Assembly: GCF_007995095.1 (NCBI RefSeq)
Contig: NZ_VOPY01000003.1
Span: forward strand, 186,001 to 250,000
Length of the DNA: 64,000 bases
Direction of reading: 5' to 3'
DNA from: Flavisphingopyxis soli
GTDB lineage: Bacteria; Pseudomonadota; Alphaproteobacteria; Sphingomonadales; Sphingomonadaceae
Shown here: positions 9,768 to 25,644 of the stretch, piece by piece
Layout of the letters: each line of letters begins with the position of its first letter
How positions within the stretch are numbered: the stretch's first letter is position 1
Translations under genes and position numbers: made by a program
Notes under the pieces: generated by a model
Databases searched by the model: none
What the model was told of the DNA's origin: nothing
The model's input: only the letters and a program-made list of their open reading frames with translations

Positions 9768-9841
9768 TGGAGCGGGTGAAGGGAATCGAACCCTCGTCGT
9801 CAGCTTGGGAAGCTGCTGCTCTGCCATTGAGCTACACCCGC
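9768..9841 (-). tRNA. tRNA-Gly (anticodon CCC), integration target
   Basis: The reverse strand gives a 74-nt cloverleaf: acceptor GCGGGTG pairing CACCCGC, D-arm GCTC...GAGC, anticodon loop TTCCCAA with anticodon CCC, T-arm with GGTTCGATTCC, and an encoded CCA 3' end. It closely resembles the glyU class. Its 5' 40 nt (9802-9841) recur exactly at 25560-25599, so the island inserted here. The 5' half and anything upstream of it now derive from the island; the integrase gene lies 43 bp upstream in the same direction. Confidence 0.95.
9802..9841. repeat. Left attachment repeat (within intact tRNA-Gly)
   Basis: Forty bases from AGCTTGGGAAGC to TACACCCGC, identical to 25560-25599. It spans the tRNA from its 5' end through the anticodon loop and into the 3' side of the anticodon stem, so the crossover lies within this region, probably at the anticodon arm symmetry. 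Confidence 0.93.
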
Positions 9842-9871
9842 ATTTCCGCCATTTTCGGGATGCACTGACCC

Positions 9872-9895
9872 GTCAGTTTACAGGTCAGTTTACAG
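9872..9895. repeat. Tandem GTCAGTTTACAG repeats, probable integrase arm sites (left)
   Basis: Two perfect tandem copies of the 12-mer GTCAGTTTACAG. They begin 31 bp from the left core, and the second one covers the integrase stop codon. The same AGTTTACAG word recurs twice near the right end of the island in the same orientation, which suggests arm-type sites for the integrase or its directionality factor. Confidence 0.65.
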
Positions 9896-10988
9896 CCTTC
9901 GCGGCAAGACGCTCGCCAAGTGCCACAACGGTTCGGGCTTGGTCAACGTAGACCAGTCGGATGTCGGCCACTTTTTCTGGTGACCATGCCATAGCTCTCG
10001 CAATTTCTTGATCGGTAGCTCCGGCGATCATCAGGTGCGTGGCATATGTACCTCGGCAGTCGTGGAGGTGCTTTTTCCGGCCATCCGAATGTATGATGCC
10101 AGCTTTTTTTGATGCTTCTCCAACGCGCTTGCCAAGGCCACCCGGTGACCACGAATTACCCTCACTGGTGACGAGAACGGTATCGACATCGACTTTTCGG
10201 CGTCGCGCACGAAGCTCCTGAAGTAAGCTCTGAAGACCCGCTGTCATTGAAACCATCGCCCGCCGCCGCTTTCCCTTGCTGGCCTTTTGGGCCATCCGGA
10301 TGATGGCTTTATCCCCAACCTCATTCCAGCGGAGATCAGCGAGGTCGGCGCAGCGCAGGCCAGTCAGACATGCTAGTCGAACGGCGTCAATGACTGCGGC
10401 GTTCGCTACACTCGCAAATCGTTCTAAATCATCGGATAGCCAAACGATGTCGGCGCGCTGACCGTTCCTATAAATAGCTGGGATATCCGCAGCCATGTTG
10501 ATTGTAAGGCGGCCTCGTTGCACTCCAAACTTCAATAGTGCGCGCAAAACGGTTACGCCGATATCGGCAGCGCGCGGCGTATTCCTTCGGCTGTCCCGCC
10601 AAGCAAAAACCTTGGCCTTCATCCGAGGGTCGTTGAAAACTGCGAGGGGAACTTCGCCCCATTTTGTCTCGATCATGTCCAGCGCGGACCCCCATGTCCG
10701 CTTCGTACTAATTGCTAAGGCAGTCCATTCCGGGCTGGATGGGCGGCTTGGGTTCCGAGATCGCCATTGGCGAATGAGCGATTGGAGCGTTTGATCATGA
10801 TTTTCATTCCGCGCCTCCCAAGCGGCAGCAATTTTACCCATCACCTCAGGGGTTAGTTTCGGCCGCCTCGCGCTGATAAATCTGTGGACCATCGGGCCGC
10901 CGCGCCATGCATAGACGTACCAAGCTCGCCCCTCCTGGAGTTGCTTTCGGACGATGTGCTCCCCGGCAGTCACAGTTTGTCTGACCAC
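9885..10988 (-). CDS. int: Tyrosine recombinase / phage-type integrase
   Basis: A 367-residue site-specific recombinase. An N-terminal arm-binding and SAM-like core-binding region (about residues 1-170) precedes the catalytic domain with Arg212 (LTGLRCADL), a lysine in KASKGKRRR (238-240), His309 and Arg312 (HDCRGTYATHL), Trp335 in place of the second His, and nucleophile Tyr347 (RLVYVD). It sits directly beside the attachment core, reading toward the tRNA. It overlaps the upstream small gene by 19 bp, so they are likely cotranscribed. It should catalyse integration and excision of this island at tRNA-Gly. Confidence 0.95.
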   Translation of the reverse strand: MVRQTVTAGEHIVRKQLQEGRAWYVYAWRGGPMVHRFISARRPKLTPEVMGKIAAAWEARNENHDQTLQSLIRQWRSRNPSRPSSPEWTALAISTKRTWGSALDMIETKWGEVPLAVFNDPRMKAKVFAWRDSRRNTPRAADIGVTVLRALLKFGVQRGRLTINMAADIPAIYRNGQRADIVWLSDDLERFASVANAAVIDAVRLACLTGLRCADLADLRWNEVGDKAIIRMAQKASKGKRRRAMVSMTAGLQSLLQELRARRRKVDVDTVLVTSEGNSWSPGGLGKRVGEASKKAGIIHSDGRKKHLHDCRGTYATHLMIAGATDQEIARAMAWSPEKVADIRLVYVDQARTVVALGERLAAKAVN

Positions 10989-11281
10989 TTATCGAACTCG
11001 TTATCGCTTGCCTGCTCGCCTGTGTCCGGATGAACGCCAACAAACTTTAACCGAATTGAACCGTCGTTTCCGATCTCCATCTCACTCACTGCAACTCCGC
11101 CTTTTTGAGCGGCACTTATCGCGCGCCAAACGTCGCTTTTCCGGAAGCTTGCCTTACGGGAGCGCGCGGGCGGAATGATTGTATCAATCCGAGCGTCAAC
11201 GGATGAAGTTGAAACGATAAACCTCTTTCGTGGCCTCACGCTCACCGAGTGTTTTTCGGAATTAGGCATTACTTTTAGCAT
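10970..11281 (-). CDS. Small integrase-linked protein, unknown function
   Basis: About 103 residues, overlapping the start of int by 19 bp. I choose the ATG at 11281 (MLKVMPNSEKHSV) because GAGGCGG stands 6 bp before it; the frame extends to 11338 and a third ATG lies at 11269. The C-terminal half (DVWRAISAAQKGGVAVSEMEI then DGSIRLKF) has the form of a short helix-strand module seen in many alphaproteobacterial proteins encoded just ahead of integrases. A role as excisionase or integrase cofactor is an inference from position. Confidence 0.7.
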   Translation of the reverse strand: MLKVMPNSEKHSVSVRPRKRFIVSTSSVDARIDTIIPPARSRKASFRKSDVWRAISAAQKGGVAVSEMEIGNDGSIRLKFVGVHPDTGEQASDNEFDKWSDKL

Positions 11282-11893
11282 AACCGCCTCTTTTTTGACG
11301 ATCATCAACAATAAAGCCATAAATAATGTTGGCAACAAGAGAATTGTGCAACGCGTTGCAAGCCTATTTGGTTGGTAATCTAAGCAGCACTGTCTTCTCA
11401 GCTAGGGGTATCTTTAAGTTGAAGGGTCGACAGGTCGCGATTTAATTGTCAACGACGCTAGCAACTTGGATACTAGCATCGGTGAACTTTGGCCAATCGT
11501 ATTCACCTTTTACGTGTTCAGCGCCACCCGCTTGACGGATGCCAGTGGCAGCTTGATATCGCACGCAGTGGGTCAATCCGATTGAGATTTTCCGGTATCT
11601 AGCCAGAGTACTAGGCGTTTCTATGGGAGCCTACTGGATAGTGGCGACTACCGATCCTGTCGATTGAGCATATGGACCACCATTCGCACCCCGCGCGCCC
11701 ACCCAATGGACCGGTGGCGTGACGAGGGACCACCTTGGCCGGGAGGAGCAGCGTTCCCTCGCCACGCCACCGGTCCATTGGGCGATCACGCGGGATGCGA
11801 ATAGTGGTCCATATGCGCGTGTTGGTTTTTGTTGGGTGCTGTCAGAACAATGGTCTGACGCCGATAAGCAACGGTTCGCTCTCGCCCATCATA
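11282..11893. other. Gene-free stretch of the island, with a long inverted repeat
   Basis: About 610 bp with no convincing coding frame on either strand. The part from 11340 to 11660 is AT-richer and should hold the promoter of the integrase pair (which starts leftward). The right part holds the 149-bp inverted repeat described separately, 77 bp beyond the 3' end of the 480-aa gene. Confidence 0.6.
11668..11816. repeat. Long imperfect inverted repeat (62-bp arms, 25-bp loop)
   Basis: The arm 11668-11729 (from GCATATGGACCAC to GACGAGGGA) pairs with 11755-11816 at 55 of 62 positions, with 25 bp between them. The innermost and outermost blocks are perfectly or almost perfectly matched; most mismatches cluster in the middle (positions 29-34). 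It may be a MITE-like palindrome, a recombination site, or the DNA for a long hairpin RNA ending the leftward 480-aa gene. There is no terminator-like T run. Confidence 0.85.
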
Positions 11894-13336
11894 CTAGCGT
11901 CGGCGGACGCCTCGCACCATTTGTGCGAAGCCTTGCCGCATTGCTCTCGCAACGGTCGCATACGGTTCAACGAGGTGGTGTCGCCGCTCCTCGCCGGGGC
12001 GGGATCGCCGAATTATATTCGCATCGCTGATCAATCCCGCGCGATGGAGCTTGCTTACAAGTTCCGGCGTAAACGCCCCGTGGCGGTCCGTTGCAGCAAA
12101 GCTGCCCGCCCCGATCAGTGCTTCAAGCACAGGCTCGGGCCGAACGTGGACCTTCGTGCAGCATCGTGAAATGCGCGTGACGAGGTCGGCGCAATCTTCG
12201 ATGCGCGGTTCGGGCACATCCGATGCCATCTCACACAAGCTGTCCCAGTCAAGGCGCGTAACCGCTACCGTCCGAAGGGCAATCAGGATGTCTGACAGAG
12301 GGCTGTCCGCTGATATAGGGGTTCCGCGAAGGTTGTCCTTTACCTTAAAGCTGAACCGCGTCTCAATCCTGATGCGGTCTGACGTTTTTGCATAGATCAC
12401 GATCTTGGTCCGCTTGGTCGGCTTGACCCCGATGAACGTCGATCCGCTTCGCCGCCCACCTATCTCGCTTATGGGATATCTGCGCCATTCGCAGTTAGTG
12501 TGCGACGCCATGATGGCGGTTGTAAGCCTATCCATCAAATCAAGGGCATCTCCATGCCGCCGCTCAAAGTAAACTTCTGCTTCTGCGGGATAGAGCCGGT
12601 CCCAGTTAAGTGCAACGCGGTGCAGCGCATCGCTGGCGTAGAGTTGTTCCCCGGCATATCCATGTGCGAACCCTTCGGATACCGGAGCGACCGCCTCCAA
12701 GGCCCAGAGCTTGAGCTTCTCCTCGAAGATGCGGATGAACGCACCGGCCCAGTCGACGCCAAGCCGATCAACGACTTCGGTAAGGTTGCCGATAATATTG
12801 TCTGATGCGTCGAGGGTCGGCACCCTTTCCACAGACAACGCACGCTCGAAGAACTGGTCTACCGGAAGGTCCATAAGCGCGGCCAGCGCATCGGGCGTAT
12901 GGCGCACCATCTCTAGCGAGTGGATCAGCGTGCGGGTCGGGTTGAGCGTCATCGTGAGCTTGACCCCCAGCCCACGCTGGGTGCCCTTCGTAATGAAGCC
13001 GGTCTTTGCAGAAATCGTGCCGGGGTGGTGGAACAGGTTCGTCCTGAAGTAATCCGGACCCCTTCCCGGAAGCCCCCAGCTTCGAGTGGACGCGCCGCGC
13101 CTCTCCAGAAGGGAGCGATAGCTTTTCATCAATGTCGTCGTTGTCTCGGGCGGATCTTCGAAAGGATCGCTATCGGGCCGGATAAAATGCACTTCGCCGG
13201 GCACCGCGACGACCAGTCTGTCGAAGCCCAGTTCCGATGCGGTGGGGCGATGCCTAATATCAAGAGCCTTGATGCCAAACCGGGACCGCTGCAACGGCCT
13301 GCCTCGCCAGCTTGTCGATGCTAGTGCCATTCGCAC
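11894..13336 (-). CDS. Unknown 480-residue island protein, possible replication-initiator-like
   Basis: I do not recognise this gene with confidence. It starts at a GTG (13336) six bases after AGGGG; an ATG two codons on is an alternative. The central segment GSTFIGVKPTKRTKIVIYAKTS then DRIRIETRF resembles the pattern of Rep_trans-type rolling-circle initiators (IxxYdK...RxE), and the C-terminal region (about 405-440) could form a winged helix. That would suit a plasmid- or phage-derived Rep on an excised circle, but the catalytic tyrosine motif is not clear. Codon use is more AT-rich than in the core genes. It stands alone, transcribed leftward. Confidence 0.6.
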   Translation of the reverse strand: MRMALASTSWRGRPLQRSRFGIKALDIRHRPTASELGFDRLVVAVPGEVHFIRPDSDPFEDPPETTTTLMKSYRSLLERRGASTRSWGLPGRGPDYFRTNLFHHPGTISAKTGFITKGTQRGLGVKLTMTLNPTRTLIHSLEMVRHTPDALAALMDLPVDQFFERALSVERVPTLDASDNIIGNLTEVVDRLGVDWAGAFIRIFEEKLKLWALEAVAPVSEGFAHGYAGEQLYASDALHRVALNWDRLYPAEAEVYFERRHGDALDLMDRLTTAIMASHTNCEWRRYPISEIGGRRSGSTFIGVKPTKRTKIVIYAKTSDRIRIETRFSFKVKDNLRGTPISADSPLSDILIALRTVAVTRLDWDSLCEMASDVPEPRIEDCADLVTRISRCCTKVHVRPEPVLEALIGAGSFAATDRHGAFTPELVSKLHRAGLISDANIIRRSRPGEERRHHLVEPYATVARAMRQGFAQMVRGVRRR

Positions 13337-13600
13337 TGTGTCCCCTACTTTTGACGTTCGCGGAGGTCTGTAGAGACAGAGTGTTGCTATCGGGCAAACG
13401 GGTCAAGCGGCCATCACGAAATGGGGAGCACCGGGGTGCGTCGTTGGCGAGCGCGCCCGGAGCAGAGCGATAGGGGCCAGGTTCCTGAACAGTCATCGGT
13501 GAGAGCCGGGATCGGGCGGTCGGGCAACGAGCCACACGTCCAGACCTACTGGCACAGTGAGCCACCCTGCCAGCGAATACGCTGAAGCCGTGCAGGTCGC

Positions 13601-14164
13601 TCACAGGTTCGGATGAGGTAGCATGTTGTTAGGAAGCACTTCGGCGATAGCATCAGGAAACGGGCAGATCGGCGACCGTTCGAGGTCGGCGGCATGCCAT
13701 CCCCAACGGTCGCGCAGATGCTGCGCAATGTCGATGCTATGGGGAGGTATCTGGGCAAACCACTCACGCCCGGTAACCGCCGACGCATCCACAACTTTGC
13801 GCCATTCATCCCAGCGATAAAAGCGGAGGTGAATTGCCCTGTGACAAGGTTGGCAGAGGGTCGGATCGCGGGAGATATCGTAATAGACATCCCCGTGTAA
13901 AGAGAGTGGCCCCGAACTGCCGCAGATGTTACATTTCGATGCCAACCTGATGCAGCCCGCCGCCAGAAGCCATCCGGCTAGATGCCCACCGCGTCGCCGC
14001 TCAATGCCAGTGAAGCCATTATAGGGCTTAAGAAGCGGGAAGCGCGAGACTTGATAGCGCGGCGGCGCATTGGATCGAGGTAACCCTAAGACATGACGGG
14101 GAAGCGCCTCAATGTAGCCGTCGATATCGAACTGCGAGTGAAGTTCAGCCAGGGCCGTTTCCAA
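13601..14164 (-). CDS. HNH-like zinc-motif protein in the recombinase operon
   Basis: About 187 residues from a TTG at 14164 that lies inside the end of the upstream 66-aa gene (overlap 20 bp). The longer frame to 14275 is rejected because its N-terminus is an out-of-frame reading of that gene. Residues near the middle read CNICGSSG, then HGDVYYD, then LCQPCHRAIHLRFYRW: two CxxC pairs flanking a histidine, followed by CHxxIH, the arrangement of an HNH/zinc-ribbon nuclease. Function is unproven. Overlaps with the two upstream genes indicate tight coupling to the serine recombinase. Confidence 0.65.
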   Translation of the reverse strand: METALAELHSQFDIDGYIEALPRHVLGLPRSNAPPRYQVSRFPLLKPYNGFTGIERRRGGHLAGWLLAAGCIRLASKCNICGSSGPLSLHGDVYYDISRDPTLCQPCHRAIHLRFYRWDEWRKVVDASAVTGREWFAQIPPHSIDIAQHLRDRWGWHAADLERSPICPFPDAIAEVLPNNMLPHPNL

Positions 14165-14345
14165 TCTGCTGCGTGATCTCGCCGGCAGTGCAGTCAACCG
14201 CAGCGATAGCCATCCGCATCTGCGAAACCAGCACACGCTGCATGTCCGGAGCGTTATCGAGGCGCTGACCTTCAATGGCGAGGCCGTGCATATCCTCCAG
14301 TATAGACGTGATGGCTGCGAACAGGTGAGGGACGCCGTCCGTCAT
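14145..14345 (-). CDS. Small helical protein, unknown, coupled to the serine recombinase
   Basis: Sixty-six residues (MTDGVPHLFAAITSILEDMH...). Its ATG overlaps the recombinase stop as ATGA at 14342-14345, a classical coupling signal, and its own stop lies inside the next gene. It looks wholly helical, with heptad-like spacing of hydrophobics, and carries no known motif. It may be an adaptor or antitoxin-like partner of the downstream HNH-like protein; this is inference from gene order and size. Confidence 0.6.
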   Translation of the reverse strand: MTDGVPHLFAAITSILEDMHGLAIEGQRLDNAPDMQRVLVSQMRMAIAAVDCTAGEITQQIGNGPG

Positions 14346-14899
14346 GCCGTCTGGCCTAACGAAAGGATGCGATACACTGAAGACCTCGATATTCCGATCT
14401 CTGCCGCGATTGCTGACGCCCCTTTGCCAGTGGCATGTAGTTCCGCGACGCGCCCGCTCTGGCGCCGGGCGGTCGGTGCACGCCCTCGATACCGCCCCTC
14501 GGCCTTGGCCTTAGCAACACCATTGCGCTGCCGTTCCAACATTATCTCGCGCTCGAATTGGCTAAAAGACCCCATTAGGTTCAAAAGTAACTTGCCAGTC
14601 GCGGTCGATGTGTCGAGGTTCATTGCAAAGATCTTGAGTGTGACACCTTTGGCTTCCAGTCGCTCCGTGATGCTGCACAAGTCAGAGATCGATCTTGCCA
14701 GTCGAGATAAATCGGCGACGACTAAAACGTCTCCGTCACGAGAAAACTCTATTGCAGCGCAAAGCTCATCCCGTTGAGAAACAGATGAAGTCATCTCACC
14801 AAATAATCGGGTGCACCCCGCCGCAAGCAACTGGACTTCCTGCGCGTCGTATCCGGCCACCTGCTCGCTGGTAGATGACCGTCGATAGCCTATAAGCAT
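14342..14899 (-). CDS. Serine recombinase (resolvase/invertase family)
   Basis: A 185-residue small serine recombinase: Tyr5-Arg-Arg-Ser-Ser9-Thr with Ser9 as nucleophile, VVADLSRLARS (conserved Arg pair), DTSTATGKLLLNLMGSFSQF and FEREIMLERQRNG on the long E helix, then a C-terminal helix-turn-helix (GASAIAAEIGISRSSVYRIL) for site binding. It could resolve cointegrates, invert a segment or maintain an excised circle. It is the first gene of a three-gene overlapping operon and begins 6 bp from a palindrome (14905-14927) that could be both its operator and a recombination subsite. Confidence 0.92.
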   Translation of the reverse strand: MLIGYRRSSTSEQVAGYDAQEVQLLAAGCTRLFGEMTSSVSQRDELCAAIEFSRDGDVLVVADLSRLARSISDLCSITERLEAKGVTLKIFAMNLDTSTATGKLLLNLMGSFSQFEREIMLERQRNGVAKAKAEGRYRGRAPTARRQSGRVAELHATGKGASAIAAEIGISRSSVYRILSLGQTA

Positions 14900-14904
14900 C
14901 TGAA

Positions 14905-14927
14905 TAACCTCATCAATTATCAGGTTA
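14905..14927. promoter_or_regulatory. Palindrome upstream of the serine recombinase
   Basis: TAACCT-N11-AGGTTA, with further partial symmetry inside (CATCAATTATC). It covers the ribosome-binding region of the recombinase gene, so it would repress translation or transcription if bound. The size also suits a resolvase subsite I half-pair. Confidence 0.45.
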
Positions 14928-15312
14928 CATTGACCAAGACGGTTCAGGAAGTCACGAGAAAACGACCACTTTTATTGTTACTTTCCGACTTATCAGAGTG
15001 CTCGCTACGAGTGCGGAATTGGCAAGATATTTGTGCGATCAAATGGCGCTGACGACTGGAAGCAATTTTTATCGCAGCCTGAACTTCGACGGGCCATGGG
15101 CAGGCCGGCATAACCGGCACCGCATTCGCCATAACTGCGGTCGTCCGCGATTGGATACATGCAACTGAAATCGGTCGCTCGGTCAGCTTGCGCCGAAGCC
15201 TATTTGGCTACAAGGTTACCGTGGTTAGGTGGTTGCGCTCCAGCATCCCGAGCGCGCCGACGCGAAGTCCGTTCGGCAACCAGTTTTGCCCGCTATTACA
15301 GAAGGACGTAAA
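14928..15312. other. Divergent intergenic region, no gene seen
   Basis: About 385 bp between the leftward recombinase operon and the rightward 247-aa gene. It must hold the promoters for both. I see no confident -35/-10 pair and no convincing ORF. Confidence 0.5.
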
Positions 15313-16056
15313 ATGACTGATGAAAAGTATTCACCTGCGGTCCTTCTTTTAGCCGACCAAATGGAACACCGGATGGCTAATAGAGAGAAATGGAAGCGCG
15401 ATGCGGCCATTTTGATCGATGTCCATCAAGTTGCGTTTAGTGCCCTGGCGTCGGTATTGAAACGTAATCTGGGACGTAAGGTTGAGGATGTCAGCAAGGC
15501 ACAAGAAGGCCAAATCTGCTTAATATCACATTTTGTCCAGGGGATTGAACTTTGCGAAAGCTCAATCTCCGAAGGTCTTTACTCGCAGGCTGCGGCGCTG
15601 TTGAAACAAGAGGTTGAGATAGTATCTGGTATCGAAGAATATCGTACTGACAAGCGGAAGGAAAAGAAAACGCCTCTGATTGGCAAGGGTGTCACTGCGG
15701 GCTTCGGACCTGTGTATGGGCAGCTCAATGATATTGCGCACCTTGGACGCCATGAAATCGCGAAGAACATCGTTTCGGGATCTGTTGGCAACCTAACCGG
15801 GGCAAGTATCGTTCCGGTTTACGAAAAAGACCTAGCGTTTGCGCTGTATGGCCAACACATCCATTACATAATTCTAGTGACGCAACAACTCGATGTGCTG
15901 TTCCAATCAATCTATGGAAAGGGTCTGAACGAGGACGAAAAAGGTTGGAGTGGTGGCGCGATTGGGGTCTTGCTGAAGGAAGGATTTCTCAAGCTACCAG
16001 ACAATGCAGAAGGGGAGGAAGCCGACTGGATCAGATCGATGATAAAGATCAAGTAG
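15313..16056 (+). CDS. Unknown, mostly helical 247-residue island protein
   Basis: The start ATG at 15313 follows GAAGGACGTAAA. Codon use is clearly AT-rich against the core genes, a sign of transfer. The protein is soluble and mainly helical. A central SEGLYSQAAALLKQEVEIVS helix and a later GPVYGQLNDIAHLGRHEI loop recall DUF5677-type/HEPN-like proteins (aromatic...LSD..H), which are found in defence and toxin settings. The HEPN RxxxxH catalytic motif is not evident, so this is only a resemblance. It stands alone, converging on the RES gene. Confidence 0.7.
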   Translation: MTDEKYSPAVLLLADQMEHRMANREKWKRDAAILIDVHQVAFSALASVLKRNLGRKVEDVSKAQEGQICLISHFVQGIELCESSISEGLYSQAAALLKQEVEIVSGIEEYRTDKRKEKKTPLIGKGVTAGFGPVYGQLNDIAHLGRHEIAKNIVSGSVGNLTGASIVPVYEKDLAFALYGQHIHYIILVTQQLDVLFQSIYGKGLNEDEKGWSGGAIGVLLKEGFLKLPDNAEGEEADWIRSMIKIK

Positions 16057-16409
16057 CCTCCCTCCCCGAAATCATGATCGGGGGTTAACTTAACCTCCCA
16101 CAGACTTATTGTGCAAGCGCATATGTGCAACGGGATCCCGAGCGGCCTTTATTGGAAAAGATAAAAGGCAGTCGAGCGGCAGCTTTCCATTACCGAGATC
16201 CGCCAGTCGGCTCCCTACCCAACAGCGGACATTCCACATTTTAACTATCAATCCTATAATAGGACCAGCCACATTTCACATAGATTATAGGTCTTGCGAG
16301 ACGCATGTTCCAAAAGCCGGGGCCAACTTCTGTGGGACGCTTTGCGGAAAACATCCTGCCAATCTAATTGTCTCACATAGGCAGGGCCTTTCGAGACCAA
16401 GCTGAGACA
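16057..16409. other. Convergent intergenic region, no gene seen
   Basis: About 350 bp between the ends of the helical protein gene and the RES gene. A weak hairpin (CCCCGA...TCGGGG around 16064-16084) lies just after the first stop. The rest is AT-rich, with no credible coding frame. Confidence 0.5.
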
Positions 16410-17228
16410 TCAGGCTTCGGGTTCCGACCACGGTTCGATGTCCACAATCTCGTTTCGAGCGAGCCCGGTGTCGGTAACAAAATAGGGGTTGTCAGCCATT
16501 TCCAGCTTCACACGCATTTGGCCAACACGGTGCAGGCCACACGACCGCAGTTCGGCTGCACTTACGTCGAACAACGCCACGTTGAAGCCGTCTTCGCCAT
16601 AGCCACTCTTGTATGCGATGCCGTCATACCCTTGCAGACGCAGAGTTTCAGCAATGATCTGTGTGGGAACGTATGTGAGGCCGCTGTCGGCCCGCTCAAC
16701 CGGTGCAGAAAAGGCATCGTTTATCTCGGTCCAGACGTGTAGCTCGATTTCCTCAGACGTCATATTGGGATTGAGGAAAGCAAACAGGTTCTTAACTAGC
16801 TTCTCCGAGCAATCAACGATCCGCAGGTCGCGAACGATCTTGAACTGCGCAATCGACACGTATGAACCGATCAAAGGTCGCACTTCCAGCGCAGCGGTCT
16901 CCTCGTTCGTCGAGAGATATAGGCAAGCAATCCCCTTTACGTTCACCCTACCTTCGCCAACGAGATGTGGATCGGGGATCATATGCTTTGGCTCATGCGC
17001 GCCCGGAAAATCTTCATACTCGCCGGGGGCCAACTCCTGCTTATGCCATCCGTGGCCTAATTGGGCTCGATAGAAATAAGCGCCTGCCTTGAGCTTTCGC
17101 ACACGGCTCATGCTGGTCAGGCTCACAGTATCTAAAAAGGCCGCTTGGTCTGGCGTTCGTGCGTAGCGAAACGCACCGCGCACAGACCTGTTGAAGTCCC
17201 GAAATGCGTTATGATTGGCAAAAGTCAT
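16410..17228 (-). CDS. RES-domain protein (putative NAD+-degrading toxin family)
   Basis: A 272-residue protein. The RES fold begins with YFYRAQLG (Arg54), then GRVNVKGIACLYLSTNEETAAL (Arg94, Tyr104, Glu110/115), and ends with QIIAETLRLQGYDGIAYKSG then FNVALFD. RES domains act as NAD+ phosphorylases or glycohydrolases in toxin-antitoxin pairs with Xre/MbcA-type antitoxins. No such antitoxin gene is adjacent; a 55-residue extension at the N-terminus may be self-regulating. It is transcribed away from hsdM (about 150 bp between starts), so the two may share a control region. It is a likely defence or addiction cargo gene. Confidence 0.85.
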   Translation of the reverse strand: MTFANHNAFRDFNRSVRGAFRYARTPDQAAFLDTVSLTSMSRVRKLKAGAYFYRAQLGHGWHKQELAPGEYEDFPGAHEPKHMIPDPHLVGEGRVNVKGIACLYLSTNEETAALEVRPLIGSYVSIAQFKIVRDLRIVDCSEKLVKNLFAFLNPNMTSEEIELHVWTEINDAFSAPVERADSGLTYVPTQIIAETLRLQGYDGIAYKSGYGEDGFNVALFDVSAAELRSCGLHRVGQMRVKLEMADNPYFVTDTGLARNEIVDIEPWSEPEA

Positions 17229-17378
17229 ATCCGTGCCTCACTGGTATTTGCATAGCGCCGATTGTTTGCCTCCGCGCTGCACCACAGGTTAACGATGCCC
17301 AATGGAACTGCACTCCGCCAGTGACTTGTTGTCGCGACGTTGGCATGAAGCGGATCAAGTTCGAAATTGGGGAATAAC

Positions 17379-19619
17379 TTGCTTACCGAATATCACAAAG
17401 AAATCGCTGGAAAGATTTGGGAAATCGCCAACCGATTGCGTGGCCCCTATCGTCCGCCACAATACCGGCTGGTGATGCTGCCCATGATCGTGCTGCGGCG
17501 GCTCGATTGTGTGTTGGAGGCCACCAAGGATGCCGTGGTCAAAGAGCATGAACGCCTGATTGCGGCTGGAACGTCAGAAAAGGCCATTCCCAAGCTCCTG
17601 ACCAAGGTCGTCGATCCCGACCGTAAACAGCCGCTCTATAATGTTAGCCGGCTCACCTTCGCCAAACTGCTTGATGACAGCGAGAACATCGCCCCCAACC
17701 TCGTCTCCTACATCAACGGCTTCTCCGCTACCGCGCGCCGCATTTTCGAGAAGTTCAAGTTCGGTGAGCAGATTGAGAAGTTGGATGCCAGCAACCGGCT
17801 GTTCAATATCGTCAAGGAAATGGCGAGCGTCGATCTGCATCCGAACAAGATCGACAGTATCCAGATGGGCTACATCTTCGAGCACCTCGTCATGCGCTTC
17901 AATGAGCAGGCGAACGAGGAGGCCGGGGATCACTTCACCCCGCGCGAGGTCATCCGGTTGATGACTAGCCTGATCTACACGGGCGAAGACGATGTTTACA
18001 AGCCAGGCGTCTACAAGGAAATCTACGATCCCACCTGCGGCACGGGCGGCATGTTGTCGGTGTCGGAAGAGGCCATTCTGCACGGCAATCAGTCCGCCAA
18101 CCTCGCCCTATTCGGGCAGGAATACAACGCCGAGAGCTGGGCGATCTGCTGCGCCGACATGCTTATCAAAGATGAAGAGACCAACAACATCGTGCTGGGT
18201 GATACGCTGGGCGACGGCAAGACCAGCGACGGTTTTGCCGACCGCCAGTTCCACTACATGTTGGCCAACCCACCATTCGGTGTGGAATGGAAAGACCAGC
18301 AGAAGGTCGTAGCGAAGGAACATGCGGAGCTAGGCTTCTCTGGGCGCTTTGGAGCGGGACTGCCCGCTATCAACGACGGCTCGCTGCTATTCCTTCAGCA
18401 CATGATTTCCAAAATGCACCGCACGCCAGAGCAGGGCGGCGAAGGGTCGAAAATCGCGATCATCTTCAACGGCTCTCCCCTGTTCAGCGGCGACGCCGGG
18501 TCCGGTCCGTCGAACATCCGGCGCTGGATCATTGAAAATGATTGGCTCGACACGATTGTCGCCCTGCCCGACCAGCTCTTCTACAACACAGGCATCTTCA
18601 CTTACATCTGGCTAGTCACCAATCGGAAGGCACCCGAACGTCAGGGCAAGGTTCAGTTGATTGACGGCACCCGCTTCTTCCGCAAAATGAAGAAGAGTCT
18701 CAACAATAAGCGCAATGAGATCAGCGACGCGCCGGGCGACGATCAAATTGCCGATCTGACCCGGCTCTACGGTAACAACAAGGAGGGTGAGACTGCCGTT
18801 GTCACTATCGACGGCCAACTGGAAAAGCGCGTTGTCAGCCGCATTTTCCATAATTATGATTTTGGTTTTCTCAAGGTTACGGTCGAGCGCCCGCTGCGCC
18901 TGAACTTCGAGGTGACGCCAGAACGGATCTCCCGTCTCGACGATCAATCCACCTTCGCTAACCTTGCCGTTTCCAAGAAGCGCAAGGATGCTGCAGCTGC
19001 GGCGCTGGAGGAGGCCGATGGACGCGACGAGCAACAGGCAATTCGCGACATCCTCACTACACTGGAAGGCAAGGGGCGGTATCTGGACCGGGAAGCGTTC
19101 GAGGCTGACCTACACAGTGCCGCCAAGCGTTTCGGGCGCAAGGTCTCCGGCCTTATGAAGAAAGCGATCTTCGCCGCGCTGGGTGAACGTGATCCGCAAG
19201 CTGAGATCTGCCGTGACAGCAAGGGTCGAGCTGAACCAGATAGCGAACTTCGCGATACCGAGAATATTCCGCTGCCTGCCTACCCTGACCTGCCCAAAGC
19301 TTTTACAGAGGCTATCAACAAGGCGGAAAACTCCGCCCATCGCGGAGCAAAACTACCCATGTTCTTCGGGCCCGACAGCCCGAATGACGATCTGGTTGCG
19401 ACTATGCGCGGCGTGATCGACGCCTATATTCGTGCCGAGGTGCTGCCGCATGTGCCCGATGCTTGGGTCGATTATGCCAAGACCAAGGTCGGCTATGAAA
19501 TCCCCATCAACCGGCATTTCTACATGTACAAACCACCGCGTCTGCTGGGCGAGATCGAAGCCGATATCACCACGCTTGAAGACGAGATTGCAGACTTGCT
19601 CAAGGGGATGGTGACGTGA
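17379..19619 (+). CDS. hsdM: Type I restriction-modification system, DNA methyltransferase subunit
   Basis: A 746-residue HsdM. The TTG at 17379 is chosen (M-LTEYHKEIAGKIWEIAN, the standard family start) with GGGGA 7 bp upstream. After an N-terminal helical domain (HsdM_N) comes the adenine-N6 methyltransferase fold: SAM motif DPTCGTGGM near residue 217 and catalytic NPPF near residue 297. A long C-terminal extension (from about 480) contains charged coiled-coil segments and the final ADITTLEDEIADLL helix that meets HsdS. Together with HsdS it methylates the recognition site; with HsdR added it restricts. It overlaps hsdS by 4 bp. Confidence 0.97.
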   Translation: MLTEYHKEIAGKIWEIANRLRGPYRPPQYRLVMLPMIVLRRLDCVLEATKDAVVKEHERLIAAGTSEKAIPKLLTKVVDPDRKQPLYNVSRLTFAKLLDDSENIAPNLVSYINGFSATARRIFEKFKFGEQIEKLDASNRLFNIVKEMASVDLHPNKIDSIQMGYIFEHLVMRFNEQANEEAGDHFTPREVIRLMTSLIYTGEDDVYKPGVYKEIYDPTCGTGGMLSVSEEAILHGNQSANLALFGQEYNAESWAICCADMLIKDEETNNIVLGDTLGDGKTSDGFADRQFHYMLANPPFGVEWKDQQKVVAKEHAELGFSGRFGAGLPAINDGSLLFLQHMISKMHRTPEQGGEGSKIAIIFNGSPLFSGDAGSGPSNIRRWIIENDWLDTIVALPDQLFYNTGIFTYIWLVTNRKAPERQGKVQLIDGTRFFRKMKKSLNNKRNEISDAPGDDQIADLTRLYGNNKEGETAVVTIDGQLEKRVVSRIFHNYDFGFLKVTVERPLRLNFEVTPERISRLDDQSTFANLAVSKKRKDAAAAALEEADGRDEQQAIRDILTTLEGKGRYLDREAFEADLHSAAKRFGRKVSGLMKKAIFAALGERDPQAEICRDSKGRAEPDSELRDTENIPLPAYPDLPKAFTEAINKAENSAHRGAKLPMFFGPDSPNDDLVATMRGVIDAYIRAEVLPHVPDAWVDYAKTKVGYEIPINRHFYMYKPPRLLGEIEADITTLEDEIADLLKGMVT

Positions 19620-20893
19620 GCTTCGACATCGTCACACCTGGCGATTGGCCGCGATCTTCGGTGTCCAAGTATTGCCAGGTGCAGCTTGGAAAGATGCTCC
19701 AGAATGACCCTAGCGGCGAAGACGACGAATTGCTGCCATACCTGCGGGCAATCAGCATCTCTAAAAATGGCGTGGACCTTTCGCACCAGTTCGCGATGTG
19801 GATCAAGCCGCACGAAAAGGCTAAGTACCGACTTCGACCTGATGATGTTCTAGTGAGCGAAGGTGGAGACGCTGGGCGCACCGCGCATTTCAAATCCGAG
19901 GGCGAGTATTATTTTCAAAACGCGATAAATCGGGTCCGTCCGCTCAACAACGGACAGATCGAAAGTCGTTATCTGTTCTATTGGTTCACCTATCTAAAAC
20001 TGGCTGGCTACGTCGATTTGATTTGCAACGTGGCAACCATCGCCCATTTCACGGCTGAAAAAGTGAAGGCGGCTCCATTTGCTCTGCCGCCCCTCACTAC
20101 CCAACGCCGCATCGTGGCGCTTTTAGATGAAAGGACGGCGCAGATTGACGGCTTGATTACGCGTAAGAAGGCTCTGCTGGAGCGGCTGGCAGAAAAGCGG
20201 CAGGCGATCATTACACAGGCCGTCACCAAGGGCCTGAAACCCGCCGCCGCCACGAAAGACAGCGGCATCGACTGGCTCGGCCAAATCCCCGCACATTGGG
20301 ACGCCTTGCCGTTGCGGCGGCTGGCAGATCGGGTTGTTACAGGGCGGACGCCACCTGCTGCTGCTGGAGACTTTTTCACGGATAGTGACGTGCCGTGGTA
20401 TACCCCCGGAGATTTTGAGGGACTGTTTTTGGCTGATGCTGAGAAGTCGTTGACTGCCGACGCCTTCAGCGAGGGCTACGCTGTTCAATTCCCCGCAAAC
20501 TCTGTGCTGTTGGTCGGCATTGGCGCAACGCTCGGGAAGGTCGCCGTGGCTCCGATGACGTGCTCGTCAAACCAGCAGATCAATGCAATCACGGCGAATG
20601 GAGAAACGGATCCCATATTTCTGGCCTACTCTCTCCACGCCTTCCGTGCCGAGGTCCGGATGTCTGCAAGCGGAAACACGCTGCCCATCCTCAATCAGGA
20701 AAAGACCAAAGCGATTATCATGACACGACCGCCTTACGCCGAACAAGCTGCCATCGGCGCATTTCTTCGCGAACAAGATCGGAAGATCGAAGCGGTAGTG
20801 GAGAAGGTCGAGACAAGCATAAAATTGTTGGTTGAGCGCAGATCGGCTCTCGTGACCAACGCAGTCACCGGCCAAATCGAGGGGCTTCAATGA
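19616..20893 (+). CDS. hsdS: Type I restriction-modification system, specificity subunit
   Basis: A 425-residue HsdS starting at a GTG that overlaps the hsdM stop (GTGA). It has the standard two-fold layout: target recognition domain 1 (1-155), a conserved helix (PPLTTQRRIVALLDERTAQ and on to about 200), target recognition domain 2 beginning GQIPAHWDALPLRRLAD, and a second conserved helix (EQAAIGAFLREQDRKIEAVV) to the C-terminus. Both TRDs look complete, so the target should be a normal bipartite sequence. The ends overlap the next gene by 4 bp. Confidence 0.95.
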   Translation: MSFDIVTPGDWPRSSVSKYCQVQLGKMLQNDPSGEDDELLPYLRAISISKNGVDLSHQFAMWIKPHEKAKYRLRPDDVLVSEGGDAGRTAHFKSEGEYYFQNAINRVRPLNNGQIESRYLFYWFTYLKLAGYVDLICNVATIAHFTAEKVKAAPFALPPLTTQRRIVALLDERTAQIDGLITRKKALLERLAEKRQAIITQAVTKGLKPAAATKDSGIDWLGQIPAHWDALPLRRLADRVVTGRTPPAAAGDFFTDSDVPWYTPGDFEGLFLADAEKSLTADAFSEGYAVQFPANSVLLVGIGATLGKVAVAPMTCSSNQQINAITANGETDPIFLAYSLHAFRAEVRMSASGNTLPILNQEKTKAIIMTRPPYAEQAAIGAFLREQDRKIEAVVEKVETSIKLLVERRSALVTNAVTGQIEGLQ

Positions 20894-21477
20894 GCCTCGA
20901 TGCCTCCAGCTACTTCAATCACCTGCGAACATACCTGTTTGCCGATTATGTCATTGACGATGGCAGTAGCGGGGCGGTTACACTGACAGAAAAATATTTC
21001 CTCGCAGGAGAGACGAAGAAGCGGACCCGCAAGGTAGTGCTGCCGTTTAAGGGTAAGGCTTTCGCCATCAAGCTCGATGGCATGCCGGACCGGCTGTTTC
21101 ACTTTCTCGACGACAACGGCAAACCATGGTCGAAACGGTGTGATTTCGTCATCTTTCAGTGCACTCGCAAGGTAGTCAACGCATATCTATTCGAGTTCAA
21201 GACAAAGAGTTTGGACCCGTCCTCGATCATCGACCAACTCAAGTCTGGCGAGCATTGGTGCGCCTGTCTGCGCAAGGTTGTGCATCAATATACGGGCGAT
21301 GACCGTAAGCTGCGTTTGCGCAAGTTCGTCTGCACCGAAAACGATAACCCGGCTGCTTACCTTGATGGAACCGGGCATTATCTGGCGCGTGATCCTTCGA
21401 TACGTCATTATCACTATGATGCCCTCGCCGGGCTAACGTTGGATCAACTGGACAACACTTCGATACGGACGGTGTGA
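20890..21477 (+). CDS. Small PD-(D/E)XK nuclease-like protein embedded in the hsd operon
   Basis: A 195-residue protein whose ATG overlaps the hsdS stop (ATGA), with only 7 bp to hsdR. No name is recognised. The middle reads KRCDFVIFQ (Asp85), a short strand, then YLFEFKTKS (Glu102-Phe-Lys104), followed by a helix with IIDQLKSG. Asp-x16-Glu-x-Lys on adjacent strands is the pattern of the PD-(D/E)XK nuclease core. The charged KKRTRK near residue 45 could contact DNA. Position shows it is made together with the RM complex; it may be an extra nuclease, an assembly factor or a defence add-on. The fold assignment is inferred by eye. Confidence 0.7.
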   Translation: MSLDASSYFNHLRTYLFADYVIDDGSSGAVTLTEKYFLAGETKKRTRKVVLPFKGKAFAIKLDGMPDRLFHFLDDNGKPWSKRCDFVIFQCTRKVVNAYLFEFKTKSLDPSSIIDQLKSGEHWCACLRKVVHQYTGDDRKLRLRKFVCTENDNPAAYLDGTGHYLARDPSIRHYHYDALAGLTLDQLDNTSIRTV

Positions 21478-21484
21478 GGGAACT

Positions 21485-24400
21485 ATGGCAGGACACACCG
21501 AAGCTGATTTCGAACGCGCTATCGAGCATGGGCTGCTTCAGACCAAGCGTTACCGTAAGGGCGATCCAAAGACTTATGATCCAGCCACCGCGCTGTTTCC
21601 TAATGAGATAATCGCCTTCGTCCGGGCGAGCCAACCTGTGCGCTGGGGACAGCTTGAAGCAATGCTCAAAGAGCGCACCGCTTCGACGGTGCTCGACAGC
21701 TTAACCAAAGAGCTGACTAGTAAGGGCACGCTGGGCGTGCTGCGGCACGGCTTCAAGTGTTATGGCAAGACACTGCGCCTCGCATATTTTCAGCCAAACT
21801 CGGGTATGAACCCCGAGGCGGCTGCGCGCTATGCCGCCAACTGTCTGACCATCACCCGGCAGGTCGAGTTCGTCTCGGACGTGCTGAAGCGCCCGGATGG
21901 CGGCAAGCGCAAGTGCATCCTCGACGTGGTGATCGCCATCAACGGCCTGCCGGTCGTAACGGCGGAGCTGAAAAACCAGTTGACCCATCAGCGGGCGGAG
22001 GATGCCTGCAAGCAATACATGACCGACCGTGACGGGCGCGACCTGCTATTTCGCTTCAAAGAGCGAGCGCTCGTGCATTTTGCGGTCGATCCCGATGAAG
22101 TGTGGATGACTACCGAACTGAAGGGTAGCGATACCTTCTTTCTGCCGTTCAACCGGGGTCACGATTTCGCAGCGGGCAATCCGCCGGTCGAAGGCAACTG
22201 GAAAACTCACTACCTTTGGGATGAGGTGCTGGCGGCTGACAGCCTGCTCGATATTCTCCAACGGTTCATGCACCTAGAAGTGAAAGAACGGACGGTGCAG
22301 ACGCCGAACGGCCCGCGTATCGTTCGGAAAGAGACCATGATCTTCCCGCGCTACCATCAGCTTGATGCCGTGCGACGGCTGGTCGATCATACACGCCACC
22401 ACGGCGCTGGACGGAACTACTTAATCCAACATTCGGCTGGGTCGGGCAAATCGAACAGTATCGCATGGCTGGCACATCGGCTGGCGTCGCTGCACGATGC
22501 CTTTGACGAGAAGGTCTTTCACTCTGTCATCGTCATCACTGACCGGCGCGTGCTCGACCAACAGTTGCAGAATACGATCTACCAGTTCGAGCACAAGACT
22601 GGCGTGGTCGAGAAAATCGACGAGAATACGCAGCAGCTCGCCCGCGCCCTGTCCAACGGCACGCCAATAATCATCTCCACCATTCAAAAGTTCCCGTTCA
22701 TCAGCCAAGCCATCAAGACGATGGAGGGCAAGGGCGAAACGCTTGCGCTGGAGACGCGGAACCGGCGTTTCGCGGTGATCGTGGACGAAGCGCACAGCTC
22801 GCAGTCTGGTGAGACTGTGAAGGCGCTCAAAGGCATCCTGAACAAGGACGGCATTGCTGACGCTATCGCCAACCAGATTGAAGATGAGGAAGATGACGAC
22901 CTCTCTGAAGCCGCCAAAGCCGCTATCAGGCAGGAAGTTCTCCAACGCGCCCGCCAGCCCAACTTGAGCTTCTTTGCCTTCACAGCGACCCCGAAGTTCA
23001 AAACCAAGGCCGTTTTCGACGAGCCGGGGCCAAGCGGCGCTTCGCCGTTCCACGAATACACAATGCGGCAGGCCATCGAGGAGGGCTTCATCCTCGACGT
23101 GCTGGAGAACTACACCACCTATAAACGTTTCTTCGGGCTGGTGAAAAAGGTCGAAGACGATCCCAATGTGCCGAAGAAGGCGGCTGCGAAGGCGTTGGGG
23201 CAGTATCTTGAGCTGCACCCGGTCAACGTGGGACAGATAGTTGCCGTCATCGTAGAGCATTTCCGCCTGAAAGTGATGCATGAGCTGGGCGGACGTGCGA
23301 AGGCGATGGTTGTGACTGGCTCGCGCCTGTCCGCCGTGAAATACAAGCAAGCCTTCGACGCCTACATCCGCGAGCGTGGATATCATGGCATCAAGGCCCT
23401 GGTGGCTTTCTCCGGCACCGTAGATGACCCTGACGCGCCGGGCACCGCTTTCAACGAAGTCGGCATGAACGATGGTCTGTCCGAGCGGGAGCTACCAGAA
23501 CGGTTCGGCGGCGATGAATATCGTGTGCTGATCGTGGCCGAAAAATATCAGACCGGGTTCGACCAGCCAATGCTCCAGACCATGTATGTGGTGAAGAAGC
23601 TCGCTGGGGTGCAGGCTGTGCAGACCCTGTCACGCCTCAACCGGATTGCAGCGGGCAAGACGCGCACGTTCGTGCTCGACTTCAAGAACGAAGAAGCGGA
23701 CATATTCAAGGCGTTTAAACCCTATTTCGAGGCAACGCCGGTCGGCCAGAACGCCGACCCTCATAAGCTCAACGAACTACACCACAAGCTGCTGCAACCC
23801 GCCGTGTTTACTTCTGCTGAGATCATCGAGTTTTCGGAAGTCTGGTTTAAGAAGCGCCGGGAGCCGACCGGACAGGATCACCGGATCATAAACGCCGTAC
23901 TCGACAGGGCAGTCGAACGGTTCAAGAACCTCGATGAGCCGGTGCAGGAGGAGTTTCGGGGGCAGCTTACAGCTTTCCGCAACCTGTATTCTTTCCTGTC
24001 GCAAATCATGCCTTATTTCGACGATGGGCTAGAGCAGCTTTATGCCTTCCTACGGAACCTCGCACCGAAACTCCCCCGTCTCGGCGACGGGTCGAAGTTC
24101 ACACTGGACGATGACGTCGCACTCAAGTTCTTTCGTCTTCAGCAAGTCGGCGAAGGCACAATCGATCTCTCGGATAGCGATGCAGACCCCCTCAAAGGCC
24201 CCACCGATGTGGGCACCGCAAGTGAGAAAGATGTGGAAGTCGCACTCTCAACCTTAGTCGACAACCTGAACGAAAAGTTCGGGACTGACTTCACCGAAGC
24301 CGATCAGCTCTTTTTCGATCAAGTCCGCGCCACTGCTGAAAAAAACGAGAAGATCGTCGAGGCTGCGCAAGCGAACAACCTGTCAAACTTCTCGGCCTTC

Positions 24401-24568
24401 TTCGGACGCATCCTCGACGACCTTTTCATTCAGAGGATGGAAGGCAACGACGAGATTTTCAATCGTGTGATGAGCGACAAGCGATTTAGGACAGCGGCAC
24501 AGGACCACCTTGCCCGTGAAGTATATGAGCGCATCAAAGGCGAAGAGCCAAGTAGCTACACCAGCTAA
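21485..24568 (+). CDS. hsdR: Type I restriction-modification system, restriction/translocase subunit
   Basis: A 1027-residue HsdR. The N-terminal nuclease domain has the ILDVV...AELKN motif (Asp146, Glu161, Lys163). The SF2 motor follows: Walker A HSAGSGKSN near residue 315, DEAH box VIVDEAHSS near 432, FFAFTATPKF (motif III) near 500 and motif VI region VQTLSRLNR near 710. A helical C-terminal domain for docking to the methylase completes it. It would translocate and cut DNA lacking modification. GAGGGA precedes the ATG. The stop overlaps the end of the convergent GIY-YIG gene. Confidence 0.97.
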   Translation: MAGHTEADFERAIEHGLLQTKRYRKGDPKTYDPATALFPNEIIAFVRASQPVRWGQLEAMLKERTASTVLDSLTKELTSKGTLGVLRHGFKCYGKTLRLAYFQPNSGMNPEAAARYAANCLTITRQVEFVSDVLKRPDGGKRKCILDVVIAINGLPVVTAELKNQLTHQRAEDACKQYMTDRDGRDLLFRFKERALVHFAVDPDEVWMTTELKGSDTFFLPFNRGHDFAAGNPPVEGNWKTHYLWDEVLAADSLLDILQRFMHLEVKERTVQTPNGPRIVRKETMIFPRYHQLDAVRRLVDHTRHHGAGRNYLIQHSAGSGKSNSIAWLAHRLASLHDAFDEKVFHSVIVITDRRVLDQQLQNTIYQFEHKTGVVEKIDENTQQLARALSNGTPIIISTIQKFPFISQAIKTMEGKGETLALETRNRRFAVIVDEAHSSQSGETVKALKGILNKDGIADAIANQIEDEEDDDLSEAAKAAIRQEVLQRARQPNLSFFAFTATPKFKTKAVFDEPGPSGASPFHEYTMRQAIEEGFILDVLENYTTYKRFFGLVKKVEDDPNVPKKAAAKALGQYLELHPVNVGQIVAVIVEHFRLKVMHELGGRAKAMVVTGSRLSAVKYKQAFDAYIRERGYHGIKALVAFSGTVDDPDAPGTAFNEVGMNDGLSERELPERFGGDEYRVLIVAEKYQTGFDQPMLQTMYVVKKLAGVQAVQTLSRLNRIAAGKTRTFVLDFKNEEADIFKAFKPYFEATPVGQNADPHKLNELHHKLLQPAVFTSAEIIEFSEVWFKKRREPTGQDHRIINAVLDRAVERFKNLDEPVQEEFRGQLTAFRNLYSFLSQIMPYFDDGLEQLYAFLRNLAPKLPRLGDGSKFTLDDDVALKFFRLQQVGEGTIDLSDSDADPLKGPTDVGTASEKDVEVALSTLVDNLNEKFGTDFTEADQLFFDQVRATAEKNEKIVEAAQANNLSNFSAFFGRILDDLFIQRMEGNDEIFNRVMSDKRFRTAAQDHLAREVYERIKGEEPSSYTS

Positions 24569-25407
24569 TTGCGGTTCAAACCCATGTCTCGGCTCTGGAG
24601 CTTGGCCTTCCAAAGCTGTTCGGTTGCTAATATTTCGTCGCTTGTCGCCGCTGATCCCATGACCTCCAGAATACTGACTTGATAGTCCGAGGGGTCACGA
24701 CTTTTTAGGCCAACATTGCCTCCGTGTCCGGTAGAGACGTAAGCCTGCCAACGCCCCCAAAATCCGTCCGCTCCGTAGGCCGAACCGACATACTGCTCGC
24801 GAGTGCGCGGGCATGTCAGAAGGTAGATGCCTTTGGTCGCGGACAAAACCGCGATCCATGACAATGGTAGGCTGGGCAGGCTCCCGAGATTGCCGATGAA
24901 GCGGGTGAAACCGGGAAAGTCAGGCTCCTGAAACGACTGGGTCAGTTCGACGATAGGCTTGTTACCTGTGTTGCTGTCTGCCCGCTGCGCCCATGATCGA
25001 GTTCCCGGGCCCCAATCAATTTTGAGGCAGCCGATTAGCTGGTCGAACTCCGGCAAGCGGCGATACTCATAAATATCTAGCGCGCGACCCATCTGACTTG
25101 CCGTCTCGCGCATGAGAGGGTCAACCCAACCCGCTTGAACAGGGCCATGGCCTGAAACCTCATACAATCCGGCAAACATGGTGCTGCCATCCGGGGGCAC
25201 AACAAAGCCAGCCCAAAACCTGCTGGCGAAGTAGGAGCGTCGATCCTCGCGTTGGGCGCTTTGATATCGCTCGAACTCATCGCGGTTGTCACGCCAGATC
25301 GCGTATGGGGTGAGGCCATCCTTCGCGACGTGTTGGTGACGCATGAGCCGAACTTCGCTTGGATCAATCCCGCTGTCGGACAACACCATATTGAATGTGA
25401 GTGCCAT
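24565..25407 (-). CDS. GIY-YIG nuclease-family protein
   Basis: A 280-residue protein starting at the ATG at 25407 (MALTFNMVLSDSGID) behind GAGGCGAG; the frame to 25488 is unsupported. The N-terminal 185 residues form the domain found in a widespread two-domain family (VRLMRHQ...TPYAIWRD...FERYQSAQ). The C-terminal GIY-YIG domain has G193-I-Y195, Y206-V-G, Arg219, GHGGN (227-231), Glu263 and a final GLNRN, so the catalytic set (Tyr, Arg, Glu, Asn) is complete. It is convergent with hsdR; the two stop codons overlap (24565-24568). Relatives are often next to restriction systems. It may be an accessory or independent restriction nuclease. Confidence 0.88.
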   Translation of the reverse strand: MALTFNMVLSDSGIDPSEVRLMRHQHVAKDGLTPYAIWRDNRDEFERYQSAQREDRRSYFASRFWAGFVVPPDGSTMFAGLYEVSGHGPVQAGWVDPLMRETASQMGRALDIYEYRRLPEFDQLIGCLKIDWGPGTRSWAQRADSNTGNKPIVELTQSFQEPDFPGFTRFIGNLGSLPSLPLSWIAVLSATKGIYLLTCPRTREQYVGSAYGADGFWGRWQAYVSTGHGGNVGLKSRDPSDYQVSILEVMGSAATSDEILATEQLWKAKLQSRDMGLNRN

Positions 25408-25467
25408 CTGTCTCGCCTCGCTGTGATGCCGCAAAGTGCAACCCGTTGCACACTTATACCTGCATTT

Positions 25468-25529
25468 CAGTTTACAGCTTTTCAGCAAGTGTTTGAAATG
25501 CCAGGCGCCGTTTTTTGCCTAGTTTACAG
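25468..25529. repeat. AGTTTACAG repeats, probable integrase arm sites (right)
   Basis: Two copies, CAGTTTACAG at 25468-25477 and AGTTTACAG at 25521-25529, in the same orientation as the tandem pair at the left end. The second ends 31 bp before the right core, the same distance as on the left side. Confidence 0.6.
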
Positions 25530-25559
25530 CGGGAATGGTAGAAAACCGTTGACTACGGG

Positions 25560-25599
25560 AGCTTGGGAAGCTGCTGCTCTGCCATTGAGCTACACCCGC
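25560..25599 (-). repeat. Right attachment repeat: truncated tRNA-Gly 5' half
   Basis: A perfect copy of 9802-9841, equal to tRNA-Gly nucleotides 1-40. It lacks the T-arm and 3' acceptor strand, so it cannot be a functional tRNA. It is most likely the original chromosomal 5' half, cut off when the island entered. Confidence 0.93.
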
Positions 25600-25615
25600 G
25601 GGTGGCAGGCCGCGG

Positions 25616-25644
25616 CAGATCGCGCAGCGCCGCCGAACTGTCAA
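25616..25644 (-). promoter_or_regulatory. Probable original promoter of tRNA-Gly, now orphaned
   Basis: On the minus strand a perfect TTGACA (25644-25639) is followed after 17 bp by GATCTG, a weak -10. A start about 7 bp later (around 25609) would give a 10-nt leader before the tRNA 5' end at 25599, just right for a tRNA gene. It now reads into the truncated tRNA and the island's right end. Confidence 0.5.

Follow-up and report, generated by a model that had tools for sequence, protein, structure and literature searches.

In bacteria, a tRNA gene that has been rebuilt by an integrating element keeps its original promoter, with very few exceptions (after Williams 2002, as related in excerpts of PMC8371274). 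Elements use the 5' region of a tRNA gene for recombination considerably more rarely than the 3' region, according to the part of PMC6563490 that cites Zhao and Williams 2002. Among archaeal elements, the excerpts of PMC8371274 describe pTN3-like integrases that use the 5' half of a tRNA gene as attB, after which the integrase promoter drives the rebuilt tRNA. In the promoter switching described for ICEKp1, it is the host tRNA promoter that drives int (an excerpt of PMC13023037).

The window studied here, by which we mean the whole analysed stretch of 64,000 nt from Flavisphingopyxis soli, contains a 15.7-kb island 5' of an intact tRNA-Gly(CCC) gene. As the tRNA gene is on the minus strand and the island lies 5' of it, this layout implies that the element recombined with the 5' half of the tRNA gene, which is the less usual polarity. 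By sequence comparison, we have shown integration into the 5' half, an orphaned native promoter and a rebuilt tRNA gene directly behind int. We think it highly likely that a tyrosine recombinase integrating in the 5' half, or anticodon loop, of tRNA-Gly brings about a reciprocal exchange of promoters, in which a promoter embedded in int drives the rebuilt tRNA gene. The features on which the argument depends are these.

9768-9841, minus strand: rebuilt intact tRNA-Gly(CCC) gene, the left attachment site; all of its upstream DNA is island
9842-25559, no strand assigned: the island, bounded by tRNA-Gly and its fragment; both of its flanks meet at one tRNA gene in genome G001
9875-9894, minus strand: two TGTAAACT repeats of the left end, separated by 12 bp, which are probable arm sites for the integrase
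9885-10988, minus strand: int, which encodes a tyrosine recombinase and runs toward the 5' end of the tRNA gene (PF00589, E 1.7e-11)
9918-9946, minus strand: candidate replacement promoter that the island carries within int (TTGACC 9946-9941, 17-nt spacer, GCACTT 9923-9918)
24565-25410, minus strand: right-end gene with a GIY-YIG-like C-terminus (PF01541, E 0.03, below the cut-off), in the path of the orphaned promoter
25469-25528, minus strand: two TGTAAACT repeats of the right end, separated by 52 bp and flanking an IHF-like site; probable arm sites
25560-25599, minus strand: displaced 40-nt 5' half of tRNA-Gly (tRNA positions 1-40), the right attachment site
25616-25644, minus strand: orphaned native tRNA-Gly(CCC) promoter (TTGACA 25644-25639, 17-nt spacer, GATCTG 25621-25616)

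The island contains int, a RES-domain gene, type I restriction-modification genes and a GIY-YIG-like gene. The RES-domain protein (PF08808; 16410-17228) is toxin-like. The type I restriction-modification genes occupy 17367-24568, and an extra 195-codon frame without a Pfam match lies between the hsdS-like and hsdR-like genes. The displaced copy (25599-25560) is identical to positions 1-40 of the tRNA-Gly(CCC) gene (9841-9768, minus strand) and ends just past the anticodon. The 5' half of the tRNA gene is therefore duplicated, with the fragment at the island end far from the intact gene, and, as judged from the empty site in G001, the DNA natively upstream of the tRNA gene has remained beside the fragment. 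A whole-genome query with tRNA-Gly returned itself, the fragment and one 74% match, which is tRNA-Gly(UCC). Within the window, ARAGORN reported the intact tRNA-Gly(CCC) gene and no second tRNA, and Rfam recognized the intact tRNA only. Copies of the tRNA 5' half, 40-42 nt long, are also found at the far end of related islands in ten genomes.

The TGTAAACT sequence occurs four times in the window compared with 0.28 expected, each time at an island end, and every other right end in which we located both repeats has the spacing of 51-52 bp. The attachment plan is rigid: TGTAAA repeats are 51-52 bp apart on the right and 12-13 bp apart on the left, with IHF-like sites on both sides. The right ends compared were L101, L102, L104-L107 and L115-L117, together with window positions 25469-25528; the site between the right repeats resembles the IHF consensus. 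A conserved CTAAGTGCTTGAAAT just before the tRNA gene in many left ends was initially read as a -10 box. We dropped this reading because no TTGAC lies at the proper distance and because its inverse complement is found again between the arm sites of the right end; an IHF-like site fits better. The palindrome TGCAACNNGTTGCA was found at 11347-11360, 25437-25450 and, with one mismatch, 12611-12624 (three matches compared with 0.15 expected). It precedes the small gene upstream of int as well as the right-end gene, and further copies lie at the two ends of the G266 island (L071 and L105) as well as at the right ends L104 and L107. Is it a shared operator or a site for a recombination factor? In L104 (by HMM) and in L101 and L108 (by eye), the DNA before the tRNA fragment resembles another int C-terminus, which suggests that islands stand in tandem at tRNA-Gly.

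The preliminary description of this DNA had placed the native tRNA-Gly(CCC) promoter before the 40-nt copy, with a leader of about 10 nt to the tRNA 5' end, and had proposed that the insertion orphaned this promoter so that it faces the right end of the island. Our results confirm this picture. The promoter is present at 25644-25616 on the minus strand, and its exact two-hexamer pattern occurs at one site with 0 mismatches in the window (a control search allowing up to three mismatches gave 74 sites compared with 37.4 expected). GATCTG lies 16 nt from the tRNA 5' end at 25599, and a start about 7 nt past GATCTG would agree with a leader of about 10 nt. The same-genus genome G001 (locus L005) is an empty site, where the homologous counterparts of the left and right window flanks join at a single intact tRNA gene; the alignment spans 1.4 kb at 81% identity overall. 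Its promoter reads TTGACA-17-GATCTG-16-tRNA and shares 27/29 promoter bases with the window, including 12/12 in the hexamers, so that this relative without the island differs from the window in neither hexamers nor spacing. Because the same element fronts the intact tRNA gene in G001, the element at 25616-25644 is the native promoter, stranded by the insertion and pointing into the island. Thus, at the level of sequence, the orphaning of the native tRNA-Gly promoter has been shown.

Sequence scoring counts against the orphaned promoter, whose strength is uncertain. A sigma-70 consensus scan did not list a promoter at 25616-25644, because GATCTG is far from TATAAT. With a model of 13 tRNA-Gly promoters from other genera, the native site scored -1.9 in the register of the preliminary description and -1.6 at a neighbouring offset, and 4,428 of the 127,920 window positions score as high as -1.9. 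The native -10 half is unlike that of the other genera. The tRNA-Asp promoter of the same genome, read by eye, is similar (TTGACA-17-TATCTG).

What the preliminary description missed is the reciprocal half of the question, namely what now drives the intact tRNA gene. As the rebuilt gene has lost its native promoter, we searched for a replacement, and a candidate lies inside int. Tyrosine recombinases use the catalytic residues R, H-x-x-R and Y; int matches the PF00589 profile, and R206, H303, R306 and Y341 are invariant in 11 alignment rows. The gene is one open frame with its stop 43 nt before the tRNA gene. The candidate promoter overlaps codons of the catalytic-tyrosine region (Y-V-D...V-A), with the -35 half on V-D and the -10 half on V-A, and 74 nt separate the end of the scored element from the tRNA gene.

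When a model was trained on native tRNA-Gly promoters with the window and its congener left out, the site at 9946-9918 on the minus strand ranked 3 of 127,920 window positions. Without the doubtful row L116, the window element gave p=0.007 against random 140-nt stretches. The strictest subset of eight natives gave p=0.014, and a model from this subset misses some of the other elements (L118, p 0.20; L088, p 0.15). The model scores the window's own native promoter poorly. Applied to the tRNA upstream regions of the window genome, it placed 7/32 above the 95% random level, so it describes promoters of the tRNA-Gly(CCC) type and not all tRNA promoters. The native promoters L009 and L106 are readable in frame like an int end, which brings a risk of circularity into the model. 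The idea that native promoters are relics of old int ends was examined by an HMM search of upstream frames up to 1.5 kb and given up; the search supports it only for L024 and L104. L009, L106 and L102 had no int support in this search, and L116 was marginal, for which reason it was dropped from the later model. In L024, 30 residues before tRNA-Gly may be a remnant of an int C-terminus (E 6e-7).

The candidate was then viewed across related integrases. These came from 19 of the 298 genomes searched in the taxonomic family (E<=1e-20), from the best 80 of 139 relatives in a named collection (mostly Sphingomonadales), from 39 viral-contig loci and from 41/396 genomes of the order. TTGAC stands at the Y-V-D codons in 26/34 integrases with a same-strand tRNA-Gly downstream and in 0/23 with an opposite-strand tRNA (two rows marked '?' excluded; Fisher p 1.6e-9), but polarity changes just twice on the integrase tree, so this contrast and its p value reflect few independent events and are descriptive only. 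Y-V-D is missing from many of the opposite-strand rows, and a count by eye over the ten that possess it gave TTGAC in 0/10. The pattern was first noticed in 15 integrases, nine of them with TTGAC, and these discovery rows recur among the 34. In newly fetched rows, TTGAC was present in 9/11 same-strand and 0/4 opposite-strand cases.

The codons themselves were tested by comparing each with the usage of its own gene, over 187 columns in a deduplicated set of 30 same-strand rows, whose C-terminal nucleotide sequences have a median pairwise identity of 53%. The strongest bias was GTT at V338 (24/29 compared with 5.3 expected, z 9.2), followed by GCA at A346 (16/21 compared with 3.2, z 7.8) and GTG at V345 (21/23 compared with 6.4, z 6.9). 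These three strongest synonymous biases all lie inside the candidate promoter, and the next has z 5.2; GAC at D339 ranks 6/187. In 45 other integrases, nothing comparable occurs at these codons (V338 ranks 31/138 and D339 ranks 82). Codon column 83 of int (Thr, ACA 10/18, z 5.2) shows a synonymous bias in the same-strand group that is unexplained.

The element also occurs where these codons do not. In six members, the int stop is 132-160 nt before the tRNA gene and the codons are absent; here TTGACG-N17-GCATT lies in the non-coding spacer, 73-83 nt before the tRNA gene. Among seven left ends with a neighbour other than this int, all but L123 have TTGAC-N16/17-GC(A/C) at 60-73 nt upstream of the tRNA gene. 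What is conserved is the position, not the gene. One clade of 64 integrases has support in the tree; of its members, 36/38 with a tRNA gene within 90 nt have TTGAC, compared with 3/20 non-adjacent members, six more being not judgeable. On a tree of 127 integrases, tRNA adjacency changes 10 times; in seven supported independent pairs, TTGAC follows adjacency in 4.4 on average and opposes it in none (median p 0.0625). Exceptions were found: L072 (GTCGAC) and L198 are without the element, in L166 and L208 TTGAC lies elsewhere, and L151 and L219 have a poor -10 half.

Based on these results, we propose a model in which both junctions receive a tRNA-type promoter. The chromosome's native tRNA promoter is left on the far right side, before the 40-nt fragment and pointing into the island, as the sequence comparison shows. 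The island would supply a promoter of the form TTGAC-N17-GCA(A/C)T within the last int codons, about 74 nt before the tRNA gene, and this int-embedded promoter would drive the rebuilt tRNA. In the excised circle, it would face the right arm, with the same 40 nt in between. The circle layout thus implies that the right end faces a tRNA-type promoter in both states, a symmetry derived from the map.

One alternative gives the orphaned promoter a larger role: the host's strong tRNA promoter would be captured to express the right-end gene only in the integrated state. The order behind the fragment is TGTAAACT, the IHF-like site, TGTAAACT and then the gene at 25410-24565. The promoter has the correct direction for this gene, an intrinsic terminator-like site was not found on the minus strand between 24500 and 25800, and a gene with 75% identity occupies the same place in the G266 island, likewise behind an orphaned promoter (TTGACC). 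We nevertheless consider capture unlikely. Among ten related right ends, the large near frame is co-directed in six but convergent in four (stop-to-stop frames judged by eye; an eleventh end, L117, gave no frame list), and a co-directed GIY-YIG-like gene at this end recurs in that one sister island only; the suggestion in the preliminary description that the promoter drives the GIY-YIG gene is weakened accordingly, and promoter capture is not a family trait. Moreover, the int-embedded promoter would face the same gene in the circle, so an on/off switch would be absent, and the gene has its own candidate operator, TGCAACNNGTTGCA, in common with the gene before int. The right-end gene is convergent with the hsdR-like gene, with a 4-bp overlap; a long transcript from the orphaned promoter would thus be antisense to the latter. 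A tRNA-half-like RNA had also been suggested, and we rejected a structured RNA from this promoter: the 40-nt-led RNA, taken from the predicted start, showed no unusual folding (z -0.55; 58/200 shuffles fold equally well). Given the mixed gene directions and the null folding result, we suggest that the orphaned promoter is mostly a by-product, whose transcript would cover the tRNA half and the right attachment arm and, in this island, the co-directed GIY-YIG-like gene as well.

The other alternatives concern the element inside int. TTGAC-N17-GCAAT could be a binding site for the recombination machinery (an integrase arm, excisionase or host factor site) and not a promoter; it adjoins the paired TGTAAA arm sites and keeps a nearly fixed distance from the tRNA gene. 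This seems to us quite improbable, as the element is missing in relatives with the opposite tRNA polarity and matches models trained only on native tRNA-Gly promoters, and as spacers of 16 and 17 both occur, as in promoters. We give very little credence to a rebuilt tRNA gene that is silent, or served only by read-through from int, with tRNA-Gly(UCC) reading GGG and the promoter-like codons arising by chance. The genome does contain a tRNA-Gly(UCC) gene, and the window's -10 half, GCACTT, is not the commonest. However, chance is at odds with the rank of the codon biases at V338, A346 and V345 and with the reappearance of the element in non-coding spacers. We therefore favour the reading in which the int-embedded element is a promoter. 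More broadly, it is likely that these integrases form a clade with a dual-coding 3' end, in which the catalytic-tyrosine region also holds a tRNA promoter tuned to the tRNA-Gly promoters of the host clade, and in which the stranded promoter makes a transcript led by the tRNA half. In this dual-coding reading, synonymous codons would be selected because the elements detach the tRNA gene they enter from its own promoter.

If so, this family would be a recurrent bacterial exception to the rule that a rebuilt tRNA keeps its original promoter. It would give a specific answer to how the tRNA stays expressed, through a promoter hidden in integrase codons, and would explain how 5'-half integration is tolerated. 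It also provides a sequence mark for such elements and predicts reciprocal promoter exchange at both junctions. A search of titles and abstracts in the open-licence literature found no report that places a tRNA promoter within the reading frame of an integrase; given that scope, novelty is provisional.

Compared with known systems, the locus resembles ICEKp1 in that transcription from a host tRNA promoter enters the integrated element (excerpt of PMC13023037). In ICEKp1, the captured gene is int, which adjoins the tRNA gene, whereas here int (9885-10988) lies at the opposite end from the orphaned promoter (25616-25644), which points toward the right-end gene; judged by layout, int expression is not of the ICEKp1 type. 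With tRNA-dependent lysogeny, as outlined in part of PMC10865867, it shares the need of the element to secure expression of the tRNA that it hits, by way of an element-borne promoter. There, a whole phage tRNA gene complements, whereas here the host tRNA gene is rebuilt. The short core, the tRNA gene that is not rebuilt and the separate element-borne tRNA are absent from our locus, where 40 identical nt rebuild the tRNA gene. The reversed-orientation bacterial element of Zhao and Williams 2002, as cited in a passage of PMC6563490, likewise uses the tRNA 5' region. The pTN3-like elements, in the portions of PMC8371274 that treat them, have attB in the tRNA 5' half and a rebuilt tRNA expressed from element sequence, as we propose here, and their native tRNA promoter can also face the other end of the element, there int(C). 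The same portions describe an archaeal system in which int is split in two on integration and the rebuilt tRNA uses the integrase promoter, whereas here int is one open frame and the candidate promoter lies inside its 3' end.
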